Shown one piece after another: positions 7,775-22,055 of a stretch of 23,235 nucleotides of DNA. The stretch's first letter is position 1. Every line of letters begins with the position of its first letter. Source of the DNA: a virus; the IMG/VR virus record IMGVR_UViG_3300023184_000537, positions 1-23,235 of that record, one strand, 5' to 3'. The position numbers and the translations under genes were made by a program. The notes under the pieces were generated by a model. The model saw only the letters and a list, made by a program, of their open reading frames with translations. It did not search any database and was not told where the DNA came from.

Positions 7775-7780
7775 GTGACT

Positions 7781-8338
7781 ATGACAACTATCGTGGGTAT
7801 CGAAGGTATTGATTTCGCTCTGCTTGTAGCTGACTCACAGATTACCGAGGATAACCTGGTGACATTAGCCACCAGTACACCTAAGATAGTTGAAGTAGGT
7901 AAGTACCTGCTAGGTATCTCAGGTGATACCAGACCAGGTGATATACTCTCGTACAACTGGAAGCCTCCGGCCTACAAAGGTGAAGATCCGGTCCAGTTTA
8001 TGGGCAAAAAAGTTATACCAAGCATACTCGCAGCTTTCAACGACAGTAGTTACGACTACAGTAAGGCAGACAAAGATGGTGGTTTCGATTATCTACTTAG
8101 CTTTAACGGCAATATCTTTCGTATTGCTTGTGATCTCTCTTTTTTCCAAAGTTCTCTCGGAATATACGGCATTGGTAGCGGCGGTCAGTTTGCTCTTGGG
8201 TATCTCTATGGAGTTAGAAAGAATGATGTCGAAGTAGGTTACGCCAAACGACACGCCCGTATAGCAGTGGAGATTGCTTCGGTCCTTGACTCCAACACAG
8301 GCAAGCCCTTACAGTTCGTAGTCCAAGAACGGTTCTAG
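7781..8338 (+). CDS. HslV/proteasome-like Ntn-hydrolase peptidase
   Basis: A 185-aa protein resembling the HslV (ClpQ) subunit. From ATG 7781 the product begins M-TTIVGIEG, so removal of Met exposes the Thr nucleophile. Asp18 (VADSQ) lies at the same distance from Thr as HslV Asp17, Lys35 (TSTPK) falls within one residue of Lys33, and GIGSGG at 130-135 matches the HslV IGSGG loop. Length is close to HslV (about 175). In the family, 12 subunits form a protease chamber fed by the HslU ATPase; no HslU is encoded here. GTG 7775 is an alternative start. It opens the rightward replication operon. Confidence 0.78.
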   Translation: MTTIVGIEGIDFALLVADSQITEDNLVTLATSTPKIVEVGKYLLGISGDTRPGDILSYNWKPPAYKGEDPVQFMGKKVIPSILAAFNDSSYDYSKADKDGGFDYLLSFNGNIFRIACDLSFFQSSLGIYGIGSGGQFALGYLYGVRKNDVEVGYAKRHARIAVEIASVLDSNTGKPLQFVVQERF

Positions 8339-9793: not shown

Positions 9794-10063
9794 ATGAGGG
9801 AGCCTCGTGATTACGAGACTCCATTATGTGCTGAAATCGGTGGAGACTTTTGGTTTCCTGAAAAAGAATCTGAGGATGGCAAAAAGTTACTCGACCCTAG
9901 TTATGCAAAGTCTATTTGTCGTAGCTGTGTACACAGAACAGAGTGTGCAGAGTGGGGCATCAAGAACGAACGCTTTGGTATCTGGGGTGGACTAACAGAA
10001 TACGAACGTAAGGTTGCTCGTTCAAAACGAAACATTAAATTAAAAGGATGGAACGTTGCTTGA
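9794..10063 (+). CDS. WhiB-family transcriptional regulator
   Basis: An 89-aa WhiB-like protein, a family almost confined to actinobacteria and their phages. It binds a 4Fe-4S cluster and works with the primary sigma factor. The four ligands are Cys12 (PLCAEI), Cys42 and Cys45 (SICRSCVH) and Cys51 (TECAEWG). The turn GIWGG at 62-66 and the basic tail (ERKVARSKRN) are the other family marks. ATG 9794 has no clear Shine-Dalgarno and lies three bases after the previous stop, so reinitiation is likely. Phage WhiB proteins can repress host whiB genes or redirect host transcription; which applies here is unknown. Confidence 0.92.
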   Translation: MREPRDYETPLCAEIGGDFWFPEKESEDGKKLLDPSYAKSICRSCVHRTECAEWGIKNERFGIWGGLTEYERKVARSKRNIKLKGWNVA

Positions 10064-11646: not shown

Positions 11647-11800
11647 AGCTGGAGAAGAGAACCAAGCAAGTCACCTCAAGCGTGCTGCACACTGGCACGA
11701 CAAGTGCGATACGAAGGGATGTGTATGTCAACACAAGACTGGTCCAGGTTACATAAGGTTGGCAGGCATAACTCCGATGAGGCAAACTCAATCCCCATAA
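11624..11800 (+). CDS. small zinc-finger-like protein
   Basis: A 58-aa protein starting at ATG 11624 within the end of the previous gene. It begins MICLNCRKAGEEN and continues with HLKRAAHWHDKCDTKGCVCQH, giving CxxC, several His and CxC-H ligands for one zinc site. Small Cys/His proteins of this design are common between replication genes of actinophages. It shares bases 11725-11800 with the primase zinc-finger gene in another frame. The frame is supported by the ligand pattern; the function is unknown. Confidence 0.55.
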   Translation: MICLNCRKAGEENQASHLKRAAHWHDKCDTKGCVCQHKTGPGYIRLAGITPMRQTQSP

Positions 11801-12099
11801 GTCCTATTGTAAGTTACTTCGGTGGAGAAGTGCGGGAGGGTCGAGAGGTTGCAGTGCGTTGTGTAATGCACAGTGACTCTCGCCGTTCTGCATCAATGAA
11901 TACAGATAAGAACCTTTACTATTGTCAGACTTGTGGTAAGGGTGGCAACGCAGTCAACTTGGTCTGCATACTAGAGAACTTGGAGTTTAAGGATGGCCTC
12001 AAACGTGCAATCGAAATTGCTACTAGAAGCGGCTCAGAGATACGCTCAAGCTCTAAGTCCGGAAGCGCTAAACGTGCTAGAAGGACGTGGAATATCTGA
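11725..12099 (+). CDS. primase zinc-binding (CHC2-like) subunit
   Basis: A 124-aa protein matching the N-terminal zinc domain of DnaG-type primases, which reads the template for primer start sites. Ligands are Cys46 and His49 (VRCVMHSDS), then Cys67 and Cys70 (YYCQTCGKGGNAVNLV), followed by the usual helix FKDGLKRAIEIA. The tail is basic and Ser-rich (SSSKSGSAKRARR). ATG 11725 is chosen for GAAGGG six bases upstream; ATG 11719 and GTG 11704 also fit. The catalytic half is a separate gene overlapping by 107 bases in another frame, so the primase is split. Confidence 0.8.
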   Translation: MSTQDWSRLHKVGRHNSDEANSIPISPIVSYFGGEVREGREVAVRCVMHSDSRRSASMNTDKNLYYCQTCGKGGNAVNLVCILENLEFKDGLKRAIEIATRSGSEIRSSSKSGSAKRARRTWNI

Positions 12100-12643: not shown

Positions 12644-13049
12644 CAATGACAGAGAACGAGTGGGTCATAATGCTACAGACTTTGCAGCATATGGGCTTTC
12701 ACATCTTGCAGCAGGACAGAACAACACAACTGATACTCATACGCCCGCAACCAACCCGTTAGCAGATCACCCAGCAGTAGCTGGCTACCGCAAGGTAGGT
12801 GTGAGTACTGAGAACTTAACATCCTTTATTGAATCCTTTGCATCCCTGCGTGCTATGCGTGTTAAGGGTGTAGGACACGAGCAGTATGCAATAGCACAAG
12901 GGCAGAAGTTCGAGTCTTTTACTACCTCAGATACTGTTCGAGAGTTGATTGAAGAGCTGGCTGATGCCAGCAACTACATAGATTTCCTTGCTATTAAACT
13001 ACTCAACATCCAGTACACAATAGATCAGGTGCTACCCGACTGTGAGTGA
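12636..13049 (+). CDS. MazG-like/phage nucleotide pyrophosphohydrolase-like protein
   Basis: A 137-aa protein. The N-terminal 50 residues look disordered (polar, many Thr, Asn and Ala). The C-terminal helical part has RELIEELADASNYIDFLAIK (103-121), close to the EExxD signature of MazG-type NTP pyrophosphohydrolases. Such enzymes remove dNTPs or alarmones during infection. Only one such acidic motif is clear, so activity is not certain. GGGGAG lies four bases before ATG 12636. Confidence 0.45.
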   Translation: MYDNDRERVGHNATDFAAYGLSHLAAGQNNTTDTHTPATNPLADHPAVAGYRKVGVSTENLTSFIESFASLRAMRVKGVGHEQYAIAQGQKFESFTTSDTVRELIEELADASNYIDFLAIKLLNIQYTIDQVLPDCE

Positions 13050-13674
13050 ACTACACCCAGTAATCTATGACCTGGTTCCTAGCGTGGCTAGAACTATCTA
13101 TCGTAGGTACAAAGCTCACGTTGAGTTTGATGACATCAAGCAAGAGTTAATGGCGTGGGCAATGACTCGTATCCCAGACCACACAGAAGATTTAATGGAG
13201 CCAGTAGAGGCTAAGCGCAAGCACAATGAGCAGCGCATTGCATACCAGATGAGACGTGTAGCTGAGCGCTATGCACGCAAGGAGAAGGCATCTAAGTCTG
13301 GCTACCAGATTATAGATGAAGCCTACTATGACCCAGTTAAGTTAGGTCAACTGCTTCCCTTTGTTATTGCATCAGTCATTGATGGCACAGTGCTAGAGCA
13401 GGTGCAACAGATGATTCAAGATGGATTGCCTAAGGGTAAGTCATCACCAGCAGAAGGCGGCAACCTGCTGATTAGCCTTATAGATATTAAACGTGGCTAT
13501 CTTAAACTAGAAGCAGATGACCAGGCCCTATTGCGTATGCGTCATCACGAGAACTACACGCTGCAACAGATAGCACAAGTACTAGAATGTGCTACATCTA
13601 CTGCAGATCGCAGGTGTGGTAATGCTTTGAATAGATTAAAAGACTTACTCGGTGGACCGAGTCCTTTTCAATGA
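13042..13674 (+). CDS. sigma-70-like transcription factor
   Basis: A 210-aa protein with remnants of two sigma regions. VEFDDIKQELMAWA (27-40) resembles region 2.1-2.2, which binds RNA polymerase. Residues 155-203 (LEADDQALLRMRHHENYTLQ, QIAQVLECATSTADRR) form a region-4-type helix-turn-helix for the -35 element. A linker of 70-plus residues separates them. Start GTG 13042 overlaps the preceding stop by eight bases. With WhiB in the same operon it is a candidate switch from early to late transcription. Which phage promoters it reads is unknown. Confidence 0.75.
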   Translation: MSELHPVIYDLVPSVARTIYRRYKAHVEFDDIKQELMAWAMTRIPDHTEDLMEPVEAKRKHNEQRIAYQMRRVAERYARKEKASKSGYQIIDEAYYDPVKLGQLLPFVIASVIDGTVLEQVQQMIQDGLPKGKSSPAEGGNLLISLIDIKRGYLKLEADDQALLRMRHHENYTLQQIAQVLECATSTADRRCGNALNRLKDLLGGPSPFQ

Positions 13675-14873: not shown

Positions 14874-15392
14874 TTAAGAAACCTTAGCCACATCTACTAT
14901 ATTTTGTATGAGCCACTCTACCACAGGCACTGCAACTGCATTACCCATTTGCTTATAGCGAGCAGAGTCTGACTGTCCAGCAGTCCAATCATCAGGGAAA
15001 CCCTGTAATCTTTCACACTCTACTGGTGTTAAGCGGCGTACTGTTCCTTCATTAAGAAGTGTTTGATCGTTAGCAGTTGCAATAGTCAAAGACTTGTCAT
15101 CACTAATCAATGGACCTTTACCTCCGCCTGGTTTACCTTCACGCATACGCATTAGCATAGGCATATTGTTCCCACCTGTCCCCATTCTAGCTTGAAGTGT
15201 ATTGATTACTCCGCCTTGTAAGCGTACATCATCTACTCTATTACCATAAAAGATAATAACAGTAGTTCTAATATCTCCATTATCAAAAGCATTCAAGGTC
15301 GGCATTACCCCCCCCTCAATCCAAGTCTCATAGTCATCCACGTTTTGAGCACGCCTACTCTTTGTGAACCACAAGGTTTTCACTTCCTCCAC
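14874..15392 (-). CDS. C5 cytosine methyltransferase, C-terminal part (motifs IX-X)
   Basis: A 172-aa frame carrying the end of a DNA cytosine-5 methyltransferase. Motif IX is VRRLTPVECERLQGFPDDW (118-136), and motif X is RYKQMGNAVAVPVVEWLI (145-162). The first 110 residues look like target-recognition sequence (RRAQNVDDYETW, PTLNAFDNGD). It has no catalytic PCQ, so it needs the upstream fragment. It is in the +1 frame relative to that fragment and overlaps it by 38 bases. The GTG 15392 has GGTGGAGG-type purine sequence nearby, and TTG 15377 is another possible start. It could be a separate subunit or a frameshifted half; an eight-G run (15308-15315, written as C here) lies inside this half. 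Confidence 0.75.
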   Translation of the reverse strand: MEEVKTLWFTKSRRAQNVDDYETWIEGGVMPTLNAFDNGDIRTTVIIFYGNRVDDVRLQGGVINTLQARMGTGGNNMPMLMRMREGKPGGGKGPLISDDKSLTIATANDQTLLNEGTVRRLTPVECERLQGFPDDWTAGQSDSARYKQMGNAVAVPVVEWLIQNIVDVAKVS

Positions 15393-16173
15393 CTAAGTCT
15401 CCACCATTGGCACGCAAAGTACCAACTCCTTCTGTGTATCCACCAAAGGATGATGAAGTTACTACTACATTATCTTCAGGTCTTTTGTATGTAGTAGCGG
15501 TAAGAGTTGTTACTCCTGGTGAATACTTGGCGAAGCCTGTTTGACCAAAGCTAAGCGGAGTGCTTCCGGTAGTGTCTTCTCTCGTCTTGCGGATCTGCGT
15601 AGGATTCCTTCGCAAGCCCTCTGACTTAAAAAGTATTTCGGCAATGCCTCTGTCAGAAGAACGTCGCCCAACGATGAAGACTCTTTTGCGTCGCTGGGGT
15701 ACTCCGAAGTATTGAGCATCAAGCACACGCCAGCCGACAGAATACCCGAGGTCGGCCATCGTCCCGATGACGACTCCAAAATCTGCTCCTTTGTTACTGG
15801 ATAGCAGACCAGGTACGTTTTCGAGGATGAAGTATTCGCTTTGCGCTTCTTCCACAATTCTTGCAGCTTCCCAGAATAACCCGCTTCGTGCGCCAGCAAG
15901 ACCAGCTCTTTTGCCAGCAACGCTGACGTCTTGGCAGGGAAATCCTCCTGCAATAATTCCTTTGCTTGGATTAAATCCGACTCCAATTAAATCACTTCCT
16001 TTCACTGTAGTTACATCATTAAATTGTGTTGCATCAGGGAAGTGCTCAGCCAATACCTCATTGCACTTCTTATCTATCTCAACAGAGGCTACAACTCTTA
16101 CGCCTTGTCGTTGCATAGCAAGGTCAAATCCTCCGACACCTGCGAATAAAGATACGCCCGTCATCTCACTCAT
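15355..16173 (-). CDS. C5 cytosine methyltransferase, N-terminal catalytic part (motifs I-VIII)
   Basis: A 272-aa fragment with most C5 methyltransferase motifs: I (SLFAGVGGFDLAM, 8-20), IV with catalytic Cys80 (AGGFPCQDVSVAG), VI (ENVPGL, 118-123) and VIII (QRRKRVFIVGR, 160-170), then target-recognition sequence. It stops at TAG 15357-15355 just after ENLVVHKE. The reading can be joined to the downstream fragment by one +1 step at the AAAG of this stop region, giving VVHKSRRAQ. Start ATG 16173 overlaps the preceding stop. The likely job is methylating phage DNA against restriction. Active protein needs both parts. Confidence 0.88.
   Translation of the reverse strand: MSEMTGVSLFAGVGGFDLAMQRQGVRVVASVEIDKKCNEVLAEHFPDATQFNDVTTVKGSDLIGVGFNPSKGIIAGGFPCQDVSVAGKRAGLAGARSGLFWEAARIVEEAQSEYFILENVPGLLSSNKGADFGVVIGTMADLGYSVGWRVLDAQYFGVPQRRKRVFIVGRRSSDRGIAEILFKSEGLRRNPTQIRKTREDTTGSTPLSFGQTGFAKYSPGVTTLTATTYKRPEDNVVVTSSSFGGYTEGVGTLRANGGDLGGGSENLVVHKE
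15510..15986 (-). CDS. possible overlapping gene inside the methyltransferase
   Basis: A 158-aa frame lies wholly inside the catalytic methyltransferase gene, in its +1 frame. It contains segments that I recall as annotated small phage proteins: DFPAKTSALLAKEL at the start, SSSKTYLVCYPVTKEQILE, LNTSEYPSDAKESSSLGDVL, and YFLSQRACEGILRRSARREK with TLPEALRLAL near the end. Such proteins are usually seen as alternate frames of dcm-type genes. It may therefore be dual coding or an annotation artefact kept open by the conserved methyltransferase. No clear ribosome site was checked convincingly. Confidence that it is translated is low. Confidence 0.3.
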   Translation of the reverse strand: MESDLIQAKELLQEDFPAKTSALLAKELVLLAHEAGYSGKLQELWKKRKANTSSSKTYLVCYPVTKEQILESSSGRWPTSGILSAGVCLMLNTSEYPSDAKESSSLGDVLLTEALPKYFLSQRACEGILRRSARREKTLPEALRLALVKQASPSIHQE

Positions 16174-19389: not shown

Positions 19390-19448
19390 TATCTTAACCC
19401 TTATCTTGTGAGCTTGTAGGTGTCTCACTAAGTAGAGAATACTAAGTG

Positions 19449-19474
19449 ACTATACCTTATGCAAGACTAATCAA
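19449..19474 (-). promoter_or_regulatory. candidate promoter of the leftward early operon
   Basis: On the leftward strand TATAGT (19454-19449) matches the -10 consensus in five of six bases. TTGATT (19474-19469) lies 14 bases upstream, a short spacer for a -35. Transcription would start near 19442, giving a leader of about 50 bases that contains GTGAG and CTCAC arms. Another pair (TTGCAT with TATTCT) lies slightly downstream. A leftward promoter is needed here; the exact hexamers are uncertain. Confidence 0.4.
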
Positions 19475-19520
19475 GTATTGAATGGTAACGATTAGATAAC
19501 GATTTAATAGGTTTATGGGT

Positions 19521-19543
19521 AGACATATGGCGCGGATATGTCT
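19521..19543. promoter_or_regulatory. dyad operator 1 (AGACAT-N11-ATGTCT)
   Basis: AGACATAT at 19521-19528 and ATATGTCT at 19536-19543 are perfect inverted arms of eight bases around GGCGCGG. The dyad lies 46 bases upstream of the candidate leftward -35. The same half-sites and spacing recur at 19720-19742, so this is probably a protein binding site for a homodimer. Confidence 0.6.
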
Positions 19544-19564
19544 AAGGGTTATGGCACTAGATCA

Positions 19565-19623
19565 CCGGATAAGGCTAGGCGATAGCTCACCGGTTATGGC
19601 TATCGGTTAGCCGGATATGGCTA
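19565..19623 (+). repeat. three CCGGWTAWGGCTA iterons
   Basis: CCGGATAAGGCTA (19565-19577), CCGGTTATGGCTA (19590-19602) and CCGGATATGGCTA (19611-19623) are direct copies starting 25 and 21 bases apart. They lie between the two dyads. Iterated sites like these are typical for initiator or repressor binding, for example at phage replication origins. The first two copies are also flanked by CAC on the left. Confidence 0.6.
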
Positions 19624-19719
19624 GGCCTTGCAAGGTTAGAGGGTTACTTAATAGCTGCAAGGGTTAAGGGTTAGGTGTGCCGGGTAGGTAGTCCGCCCCT
19701 ATCTCTTTACTAACACCCT

Positions 19720-19742
19720 AGACATCTAGCCCGCATATGTCC
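19720..19742. promoter_or_regulatory. dyad operator 2 (AGACAT-N11-ATGTCC)
   Basis: AGACAT at 19720-19725 and ATGTCC at 19737-19742 repeat the half-sites of operator 1 with the identical 11-base spacing; one outer base differs. It lies 51 bases upstream of the rightward -35 element. The matched placement at both promoters suggests one regulator for both directions. Confidence 0.55.
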
Positions 19743-19793
19743 AAGCCTTACCGTAAAGTAGAGGGTTAGGCCGGAGACGGACACCCCCCCTTG

Positions 19794-19822
19794 TTGAATT
19801 GTGGCGCGGTGGTCCGTATACT
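19794..19822 (+). promoter_or_regulatory. rightward sigma-70-type promoter
   Basis: TTGAAT (19794-19799), a 17-base spacer and TATACT (19817-19822) make the best promoter seen in the window: four of six and five of six consensus bases at ideal spacing. Transcription would start near 19829 and run through a leader of about 370 bases into the terminase operon. Confidence 0.65.
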
Positions 19823-19861
19823 CCCCAACAAAATATATTTCCTAAAGTGAGATCCAATAAT

Positions 19862-19948
19862 ATGGCTCTGACCTGCACTTATACTTACTGTGATACAACT
19901 CACATCTGTAAAACGGGAAATGCGTTAAATTTCCTGCCTTATATATAG
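19862..19948 (+). CDS. possible 28-aa leader peptide
   Basis: About 33 bases after the predicted transcript start, ATG 19862 opens a 28-codon frame: MALTCTYTYCDTTHICKTGN then ALNFLPYI. It has three Cys and one His (possible metal site). The ribosome site is weak (AAGTGAG upstream). TAG 19946-19948 comes just three bases before a stable hairpin at 19952-19974, which is the layout of a leader peptide with attenuation, but the frame may also be chance. Confidence 0.25.
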   Translation: MALTCTYTYCDTTHICKTGNALNFLPYI

Positions 19949-19951
19949 TAA

Positions 19952-20063
19952 GGGGTTTTAATAGGAAAAACCCCGACTGGTGTTAATGTGGCCTCTGGCG
20001 AGGCCCCTAGGCCGAGACCTAACTTACCCCTCAGTTCGCTTGGGCTCCTTCGGGCGCCAAGCC
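19952..20063 (+). promoter_or_regulatory. hairpin-rich leader of the terminase transcript
   Basis: Three hairpins follow one another: GGGGTTTT (19952-19959) with AAAACCCC (19967-19974); GGCCTC with GAGGCC around TGGC near 19990-20005; and CTTGG with CCAAG around a TTCG-containing loop near 20039-20061. None is followed by a T tract, so simple termination is unlikely. They may protect RNA, pause polymerase, or be DNA structures for packaging. Confidence 0.4.
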
Positions 20064-20101
20064 CGAACTAGTCCGTACTTTTTAGTGGGGATAGCTATAT
20101 C

Positions 20102-20156
20102 TAACCAGATGTAGATCATCCATTAACCAGGTGGAACCCCCTGCTTTAACCAGGTG
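20102..20156 (+). repeat. three TAACCAGRTG iterons before the terminase gene
   Basis: TAACCAGATG (20102-20111), TAACCAGGTG (20124-20133) and TAACCAGGTG (20147-20156) start 22 and 23 bases apart, about two helix turns, so they face the same side of DNA. The last ends 40 bases before the terminase start. Copies 2 and 3 extend to TTAACCAGGTG. This is where many phages place the site bound by their small terminase. Confidence 0.65.
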
Positions 20157-20195
20157 AGAAAACTTGTTCCGCCCGATTTTTTTTGAGGAGATTAC

Positions 20196-22055
20196 GTGGC
20201 TGATAATTCAGCAGATATAGCAAAGCGTATTATCCTCGGCGCAGTAGCAGAGGGTATGACCGTCGAGGCAGCCACGGCTTCTGCCGGTAAGTCCATCAAG
20301 ACCTACGAGTACTACCGCCGCACCGATAAGATATTTTCAGATAAAGTGGACCGAACCCGCCTGGGTCTTAAAGACAAGGCATTTGCATCTGGCGATGTCC
20401 ACGACATTACTTTTGCCGAGTTCCGCCAGAGGTTCCTGCATAGCCGTACCTTTGAGCATCAACAGAATATTGTAGATGTAATTGAGGGCAGAGAACCTGG
20501 ATGGCTACACCCATCTATGAAGTTTGAAAAGGGTGTGGCTAATAACCGCATTCTTATTAACATCCCGCCCAACCACGCCAAGTCAATGACTATCACCGTT
20601 GACTACGTCACCTGGCAGGTAGCACGCAATCCCAACTTCCGTGTTCTTATTGTTTCCCAAACGCAGCGCTTAGCTGCCGACTTTCTCTACGCCATCAAGC
20701 AACGCCTGACTCATCCGAACTATGAAGATCTACAACAGGCATACGCGGCTGGCGTAGGGTTTAACTCAAAGACTGCTTCCTGGCAAGCAACCCGTGTCAC
20801 CTTCGGTGATGAACTCCGTGAGTCATCTGAAAAGGACCCGAACATCGAGGCCGTTGGTATCGGCGGTCAAATCTACGGCAAGCGTGCCGATATGATTATT
20901 GTAGACGATGCTGTGACGCTCTCTAACGCTAATGACTTTGAACGACAGATTAAGTGGCTCACCCAGGACGTTCGCTCCCGTTTGAACCCTACAGGTAAAC
21001 TTATTATTATCGGTACCCGTGTAGCATCCGTTGACCTATACCGCGAGCTACGCCAAGAAGATAGATACCCAGGTGGATTAGTTCCTTGGACCTATCTTGC
21101 AATGCCAGCATTGCTGAGCACAGATGAGGACCCTGACAAGTGGGAAACTCTGTGGCCTAAATCAGATGCACCCTTTGACGGGCAAGAAGAATCTGACAAG
21201 GACGAGAACGGTTTATACCCACGATGGTCTGGACGGAACTTATACAATGAGCGTCAAGCGATGGACACCAGCACTTGGGCGCTGGTCTATCAACAGCAAG
21301 ATGTCTCCGAGAACTCTGCTTTTGATCCTGTCTGTGTTCGTGGCTCTATTGACGGTATGCGCAAATCCGGCCCATTAGTTGCAGGACACCCAGGTCATCC
21401 TAAAGATTTAAGCGGCTTCTCAATTATCTGTGGTCTTGACCCAGCGATGATTGGCGATACCGCAGCTATATGTTATGCCATTGATCGTAGTTCTAATAAG
21501 CGCTACATCATAGATGCAATCAAGATTACGCGACCATCTCCGGCAGACATCAGAGACTTGATATTTAACTGGACTTCTTTATATGGACCCAGTGAATGGA
21601 TAGTGGAGAAAAATGCTTTCCAATCATTCCTTACCCAAGATGAAGGAATTCGTCAGCACCTGGCAAGCCGAGGAGTGCTACTGCGGGAACACCATACTGG
21701 AAACAACAAGTGGGACGCAGGCTTCGGTGTTGCATCAATGTCAACTTTGTTCGGCACCAAGCAACACGATGGCAAGCACCACCGCGACAATCTTATCCAT
21801 CTTCCCTCTGATCAGACGGAGAATGTTAAGGCACTGATTGAACAGTTAATCACTTGGACTCCTACTACTAAGGGTAAGACAGACTTAGTAATGGCGCTGT
21901 GGTTCTGTGAAATCCGAGCACGTGAGATGCTCAACTATGGTCAGTATAACTCTCACCACCTTAAGAATCCGTTTCTTACATCAGCTGAGAAGCGTAAGCG
22001 TGTAGTTGTCAACATTGACCAACTGCTTGCAGATCAAAACAAACACTTCGTCTAG
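20196..22055 (+). CDS. terminase large subunit with N-terminal HTH-like extension
   Basis: A 619-aa DNA-packaging motor. Residues 1-60 look like a helix-turn-helix of small-terminase type (AKRIILGAVAEGMTVEAATA, then SAGKSIKTYEYYRR), after which the ATPase begins. The Walker A-like loop is IPPNHAKS (123-130), Walker B is MIIVDDA (233-239), and IIGTR (271-275) fits the coupling motif. The nuclease half shows Asp415 (CGLDPAMIGD) and Glu471 (WIVEKNAF), which cut concatemers. Start GTG 20196 has GGAG upstream. No separate small terminase gene precedes it, so the N-terminal part may do that job. Confidence 0.9.
   Translation: MADNSADIAKRIILGAVAEGMTVEAATASAGKSIKTYEYYRRTDKIFSDKVDRTRLGLKDKAFASGDVHDITFAEFRQRFLHSRTFEHQQNIVDVIEGREPGWLHPSMKFEKGVANNRILINIPPNHAKSMTITVDYVTWQVARNPNFRVLIVSQTQRLAADFLYAIKQRLTHPNYEDLQQAYAAGVGFNSKTASWQATRVTFGDELRESSEKDPNIEAVGIGGQIYGKRADMIIVDDAVTLSNANDFERQIKWLTQDVRSRLNPTGKLIIIGTRVASVDLYRELRQEDRYPGGLVPWTYLAMPALLSTDEDPDKWETLWPKSDAPFDGQEESDKDENGLYPRWSGRNLYNERQAMDTSTWALVYQQQDVSENSAFDPVCVRGSIDGMRKSGPLVAGHPGHPKDLSGFSIICGLDPAMIGDTAAICYAIDRSSNKRYIIDAIKITRPSPADIRDLIFNWTSLYGPSEWIVEKNAFQSFLTQDEGIRQHLASRGVLLREHHTGNNKWDAGFGVASMSTLFGTKQHDGKHHRDNLIHLPSDQTENVKALIEQLITWTPTTKGKTDLVMALWFCEIRAREMLNYGQYNSHHLKNPFLTSAEKRKRVVVNIDQLLADQNKHFV

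Follow-up and report, generated by a model that had tools for sequence, protein, structure and literature searches.

Organization of the intergenic stretch upstream of terL

Near the right side of the window, a 23,235-base fragment of a virus record, an intergenic stretch of 767 bp (19429-20195) separates leftward small genes from the rightward gene of the terminase large subunit, terL (Table 1). The nearest leftward ORF starts at 19428 and no gene lies between this position and terL, in agreement with the first-pass annotation, which had found no separate small terminase (TerS) gene in front of terL. The contig is internal and incomplete, and the hosts of the phage family are probably freshwater actinobacteria; the window encodes a WhiB-like regulator (9794-10063), which fits an actinobacterial host, and a sigma-factor-like protein (13042-13674), both of them possible late regulators. 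Elsewhere in the window, a cytosine DNA methyltransferase-like sequence on the minus strand (14874-16173) consists of two ORFs that overlap in different frames (15355-16173 and 14874-15392), which may reflect a frameshift or an arrangement as two genes, and an ORF at 7775-8338, starting with MTMTTIVGIEGIDFALLVADSQ, looks by eye like a proteasome-type Ntn-hydrolase.

The intergenic stretch contains three iterons, and TAACCAGRTG has no further exact match on either strand of the window. Their start-to-start distances are 22 and 23 bp, and the last one ends 39 bp before the GTG start codon of terL at 20196. When the 767-bp stretch was dinucleotide-shuffled 1000 times, a triple of 10-mers at 15-30 bp spacing and with 9/10 identity or better never appeared, so that the row of repeats seen in front of the terminase at first pass is real.

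Table 1 Features upstream of and within terL, in window coordinates
Feature	Position	Strand	Remarks
Inferred direct terminal repeat (DTR), about 129 bp	19691-19819		left cut before GTCCGCCCC; right cut GTAT/ACTCCCC; from homology and contig starts
CRP/GlxR-type palindrome	19889-19904		TGTGATACAACTCACA, perfect; some 54 bp before the putative start
Promoter-like element, putative late -10 and start (about 19951)	19940-19955	+	TATATATAGTAAGGGG; consensus; conserved in relatives
Putative late-operon leader, structured, about 245 nt	19951-20195	+	MFE -83 kcal/mol; four-helix consensus
Hairpin with iteron 1 (loop and 3' arm)	20095-20114	+	CTATATCT[AACC]AGATGTAG; arms partner-specific in relatives
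Iteron 1	20102-20111	+	TAACCAGATG
Iteron 2	20124-20133	+	TAACCAGGTG
Iteron 3	20147-20156	+	TAACCAGGTG
Terminase large subunit (terL), 619 aa	20196-22055	+	GTG start; PHROG 38, E=4.6e-64
N-terminal small-terminase-like HTH, residues 5-56	20208-20363	+	AlphaFold2; Foldseek viral matches; conserved in relatives

Genome ends

The Streptomyces phages Immanuel3 and FlowerPower have exact DTRs of 275 and 253 bp, respectively, which start with GTCCCAT and end at GGAGTG/AGTCCCC (the slash marks the cut), 404 and 371 bp before terL. The right junction, GGAGTG/AGTCCC, is invariant in 14 of 14 aligned Streptomyces records and was aligned by eye with GTAT/ACTCCCC at 19819/19820 of the window. With contig ends serving as a proxy for reads, the left end was placed from contigs of separate samples (L009, L041, L046 (=L209), L047 and L067), all of which start at one homologous base before GCCC that corresponds to window position 19691 and lies 122-130 bp before ACTCCCC; the contigs of four more relatives start 18-19 bp further out. 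From this homology and these contig starts we infer the DTR of the window, which would place the repeats about 280-340 bp inside the left genome end. Among 34 relatives the first repeat core is 306 ± 21 bp from the predicted right end of the DTR, and the repeats therefore stand beside the predicted cut, as cosB or pac sites do. The first-pass annotation had proposed that the iterons form a packaging site read by the terminase, an idea that would lose ground if the physical ends mapped far away; the predicted DTR is in fact only about 280 bp away from the repeats, on their upstream side.

The terminase large subunit carries a small-terminase-like HTH

TerL is of the T7 type: it has gp19 homology with the ATPase core, as seen from its match to PHROG 38 and to T7 DNA maturase B (PDB 4bij, E=1.1e-9 over residues 129-295). 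Its nearest full-length annotated relatives are the TerL proteins of Streptomyces Beephvirinae and of Planktophila phages, which are 42-47% identical over at least 98% of the length. Two of these nearest records are the isolated freshwater Nanopelagicales phages E7 and F5 of Planktophila (PMC10202952).

An AlphaFold2 model of residues 1-80 gave a confident four-helix HTH (helices 5-18, 23-29, 34-43 and 45-56; block pLDDT about 89-94 over residues 11-50), which bears out the N-terminal extension with an HTH noted at first pass. In a Foldseek search against viral structures, the best folds include several annotated small terminases and phBC6A51-type HTHs (about 1-3 Å), and the best matches superimpose with an rmsd of about 1-2 Å over 48-58 residues, the small size of the domain keeping the E-values above 0.06. 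The proposed likeness to small terminase folds thus stands as regards the fold, viral TerS proteins being among the closest, but not as regards the E-values. Against the PDB no significant match was obtained, the highest TM-score being 0.52 with Sf6 TerS (3hef, E=9.4), and the HTH sequence matched a TerS PHROG weakly (E=0.12). The model of full-length TerL was set aside from the fold search owing to its pLDDT of 66. The HTH is followed by a single further helix (45-56), a low-confidence linker (57-72) and then the ATPase part. In a whole TerS an oligomerisation helical core and a stalk follow the HTH (PMC9611059); neither appears in the AlphaFold2 model of the TerL N-terminus, which is accordingly an HTH domain and not a whole TerS. 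The HTH is kept in the TerL of the Streptomyces and Planktophila relatives and of one Lentzea genome contig. A TerL with a built-in small-terminase-like HTH beside DTR ends is thus well supported.

TerS is regarded as indispensable in vivo and is as a rule encoded by a gene of its own. A separate TerS elsewhere in the genome would have argued against recognition by the fused HTH; we recognised none among 20 candidate small proteins selected from the window and from a near-closed relative of 40.3 kb (0/20 matched a TerS PHROG), a screen of chosen proteins, which a highly diverged TerS could escape. Among the late proteins, several small conserved ones are without a known function. A text search within a literature library found no described TerS-TerL fusion.

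Repeat cores change in concert among relatives

The equivalent place in 77 relatives holds one to three copies of a core of 7-8 nt, which falls into five classes (AACCAGGT, CAGCTAA, [AG]CCGGTA, CC[CT]AGTA and CCG[AC]TAA). The place of the repeats is thus kept and their core differs; as described below, the HTH does not follow the core. The spacing of 22-23 bp in the window is about two turns and had suggested that the iterons lie on the same DNA face; among relatives the spacing ranges from 16 to 29 bp, so the phase is not conserved.

Copies in one genome agree at 7.35 of 8 core positions, compared with 3.03 of 8 across classes, while the 8 nt after the core are not shared (agreement of 2.53/8 within a genome versus 2.81 across genomes). 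The classes being defined by the core itself, the informative points are that the copies of a genome share one class and that their flanks differ. Judged from this comparison of sequences, the pattern is that of a recognised motif with a lineage-changing partner rather than of a recent duplication, because the copies agree in the core and differ in the flanks, and the concerted changes of the core imply a co-varying partner other than TerL.

The first copy in relatives is 171 ± 18 bp downstream of the promoter-like TATATATAGTA with its putative start. The distance from the last copy to terL is variable (113 ± 117 bp, range 23-592 bp), because tRNA, HNH-like and other genes have been inserted between them. 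Their placement therefore ties the repeats to the leader or the terminus rather than to terL. A tRNA-Arg(acg) occupies this place in L008 (5912-5985) and L018 (2115-2188), and further relatives have HNH-like or other ORFs there. The possibility that the repeats themselves are a promoter, considered because of TATAAT-like ends in some relatives, was rejected since such ends are missing in the window and in several classes. A search for complementarity between the core and other parts of the leader gave no signal.

A CRP-type site, a promoter-like element and a structured leader

Besides the CRP/GlxR-type palindrome between the predicted DTR and terL, no site in the window comes within one mismatch of this motif. 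All 62 relatives that could be tested have TGTGA-N6-TCACA, with at most two mismatches, at -54/-55 or at -68 to -70, and the palindrome is also found in all Streptomyces relatives, usually as two sites each, and in both Planktophila phages. This suggests that a host regulator of the CRP family acts at the late promoter or at the genome end. The promoter-like element of the window has its counterpart in the Streptomyces relatives as GGTATATATATAATGGGG or near variants.

Downstream of the putative start, the leader is predicted to fold into four helices, in which 92% of cells are paired compared with at most 50% when the partners are slid, and which show 50 double-changed cells against 17.1 in shuffles. 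Covariation was counted on this named structure instead of the RNAalifold consensus; RNAalifold, applied to the whole MAFFT alignment, recovered no more than 14 pairs, the variable stems being badly aligned. The leader had no Rfam match at the gathering threshold, the best being at chance level (E=0.97). It includes a helix, GCGAGGCC/GGCCGAGC, that contains tandem G-A, as well as a long-range ACCCC/GGG pairing, and it has terminator-like hairpins followed by TTTTA.

Iteron 1 contributes the loop and 3' arm of a hairpin, and across relatives each arm pairs better with its own counterpart than with permuted ones on average (9.12 versus a permutation mean of 7.96; maximum of 500 permutations, 9.24). 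Copy 2 has no such partner-specific hairpin (6.49 versus 6.39), copy 1 has none in core class E, and iterons 2 and 3 of the window lack the 3' arm. An alternative in which the 5' arm pairs with copy 2 was rejected as a general feature, since it holds in some classes only. Taken together, the region would be at least a regulated late promoter with a putatively transcribed leader.

TerL does not follow the repeat cores

The first-pass annotation had proposed that the fused HTH reads the iterons, and the comparison of relatives does not support this part of its proposal. The HTH of the window (residues 10-46) is identical to those of four relatives (L032, L053, L060 and L079), all of which have CCG[AC]TAA cores, and two more groups with identical HTHs mix core classes. 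The TerL proteins of L005 and L006 are 97.6% identical, and their cores are CAGCTAA and AACCAGGT, respectively; no TerL position separates the classes AACCAGG and CAGCTAA. In Streptomyces Manuelvirus a near-identical HTH-TerL and the DTR junction are retained and AACCAGG-type repeats are absent. DNA binding by small-terminase HTHs can be of low sequence specificity (PMC4737164, PMC9611059), and the missing covariation therefore weakens the pairing of HTH and iterons and leaves TerL itself among the candidates.

In the class CC[CT]AGTA, codons 54-55 of terL (about +158) read ACT AGG, which is the core reversed and includes a rare Arg codon. Most genomes with the CCTAGT core have these codons, which no other class shows; in L076 and L022 they follow the core and not the HTH clade. 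When the cores were compared against the terL start, a signal (z about 5) came mainly from this one class with its ACT AGG codons; it is confounded by phylogeny and was set aside. In a gene-by-gene test of association with class, the top real gene was a zinc-finger primase-like ORF (11704-12099); the test is crude, weak and phylogenetically confounded, rests on 13 genomes with few class changes, and singled out no partner protein.

Interpretation

We give about one chance in two to the reading that the repeats are class-specific sites for a trans-acting factor other than TerL, situated in the leader of the late operon. The left genome end would then be arranged in the order DTR, CRP/GlxR-type site, late promoter, structured leader RNA and terL with its HTH, and the iterons would be class-specific direct repeats in the leader, about 170 nt into the transcript and some 300 bp inward of the DTR. 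A lineage-specific factor may recognise them at the DNA or RNA level and so control the late operon, of which terL would be the first gene; the fused HTH would more likely act directly at the terminus, whatever the sequence of the iterons. The concertedness of the cores, their steady distance to the start and the DTR, the covarying leader, the promoter-like and CRP-type sites, and a TerL and HTH that do not follow the core class argue for this reading. It is weakened by the association test, which did not find a candidate factor, by the start and the leader being deduced from conservation, and by the fixed distance to the DTR, which is equally expected of a packaging site.

Lambda terminase uses R sites beside cosN. 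By analogy, TerL alone could recognise the iterons as a packaging site, translocate the DNA and cut at the DTR about 280 bp away, and a small-terminase-type HTH fused to TerL, the failure to recognise a TerS, the predicted DTR ends nearby, the repeats, which keep a fixed distance to the terminus and do not move with terL when genes are inserted in front of it, and the reversed core inside terL in one class are all consistent with it. We nevertheless consider this unlikely, given the different cores accompanying identical HTHs or 97.6% identical TerLs, the lack of any TerL position separating AACCAGG from CAGCTAA, the variation in spacing (16-29 bp) and copy number (one to three), and the Manuelvirus genomes, which have the HTH and the DTR junction and lack the repeats. 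Slightly more doubtful still is a one-polypeptide terminase in the full sense, in which TerL with its HTH recognises the terminus without TerS and the leader repeats are the packaging signal; if this were true, late transcription and packaging initiation would share one site.

It is improbable that the repeats are a packaging or replication site for a separate protein that escaped recognition, such as a diverged TerS or an origin or primosome factor, whose specificity changes by lineage. The concerted core changes, which imply a partner other than TerL, would suit such a protein, as would the small conserved late proteins without known function and the zinc-finger primase ORF, which has the highest class association among real genes; on the other side, none of the 20 proteins tested matches a TerS PHROG, and the association is based on 13 genomes with few class changes. 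A purely RNA-level switch, in which the hairpin arms of iteron 1 and a competing copy would control attenuation or translation, is equally improbable: the partner-specific arms in classes A-D and the terminator-like hairpins before TTTTA fit it, but neither copy 2 nor copy 1 of class E shows a partner-specific hairpin, copies 2 and 3 of the window lack the 3' arm, and control of terL translation is unlikely because the repeats stay put when genes insert before terL.

Apart from the packaging question, the genome end with its conserved structured leader and CRP/GlxR-type site suggests that the late operon of abundant freshwater actinophages is under the control of a host regulator and an undescribed RNA. 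As for the terminase, a family that has cultivable Streptomyces and Planktophila members, a TerS-like HTH on TerL and no recognised TerS makes it testable whether one polypeptide suffices for site recognition, translocation and cutting.

Comparison with known systems

The Beephvirinae (Immanuel3, FlowerPower and Manuel) resemble the window most extensively: TerL is homologous over its full length including the HTH, terL is the first late gene, and a CRP-type palindrome and a promoter-like element, TATATATA, lie between the DTR and terL. Their DTRs are exact and longer (253-275 bp) than the predicted DTR of the window, about 129 bp; their repeats are unlike those of the window, being 10-11 bp apart and absent in Manuelvirus, and the leader sequence is not alike. 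The Planktophila phages E7 and F5 share 46-47% TerL identity, including the HTH, and TGTGA-N6-TCACA before terL, but no comparable leader sequence was seen in them. The T7 terminase (gp18 and gp19) is similar in the gp19-related ATPase of TerL and in its DTR ends, predicted ones in the window; T7 has a separate TerS, whereas the window phage has the HTH fused to TerL. Like the R sites of lambda cosB, the iterons are short repeated sites beside a terminase cut, here a predicted one, with an HTH in the terminase; unlike cosB, they show no covariation with the HTH, their spacing is unphased, the predicted end is a DTR and not cos, and they lie inside a putatively transcribed leader.
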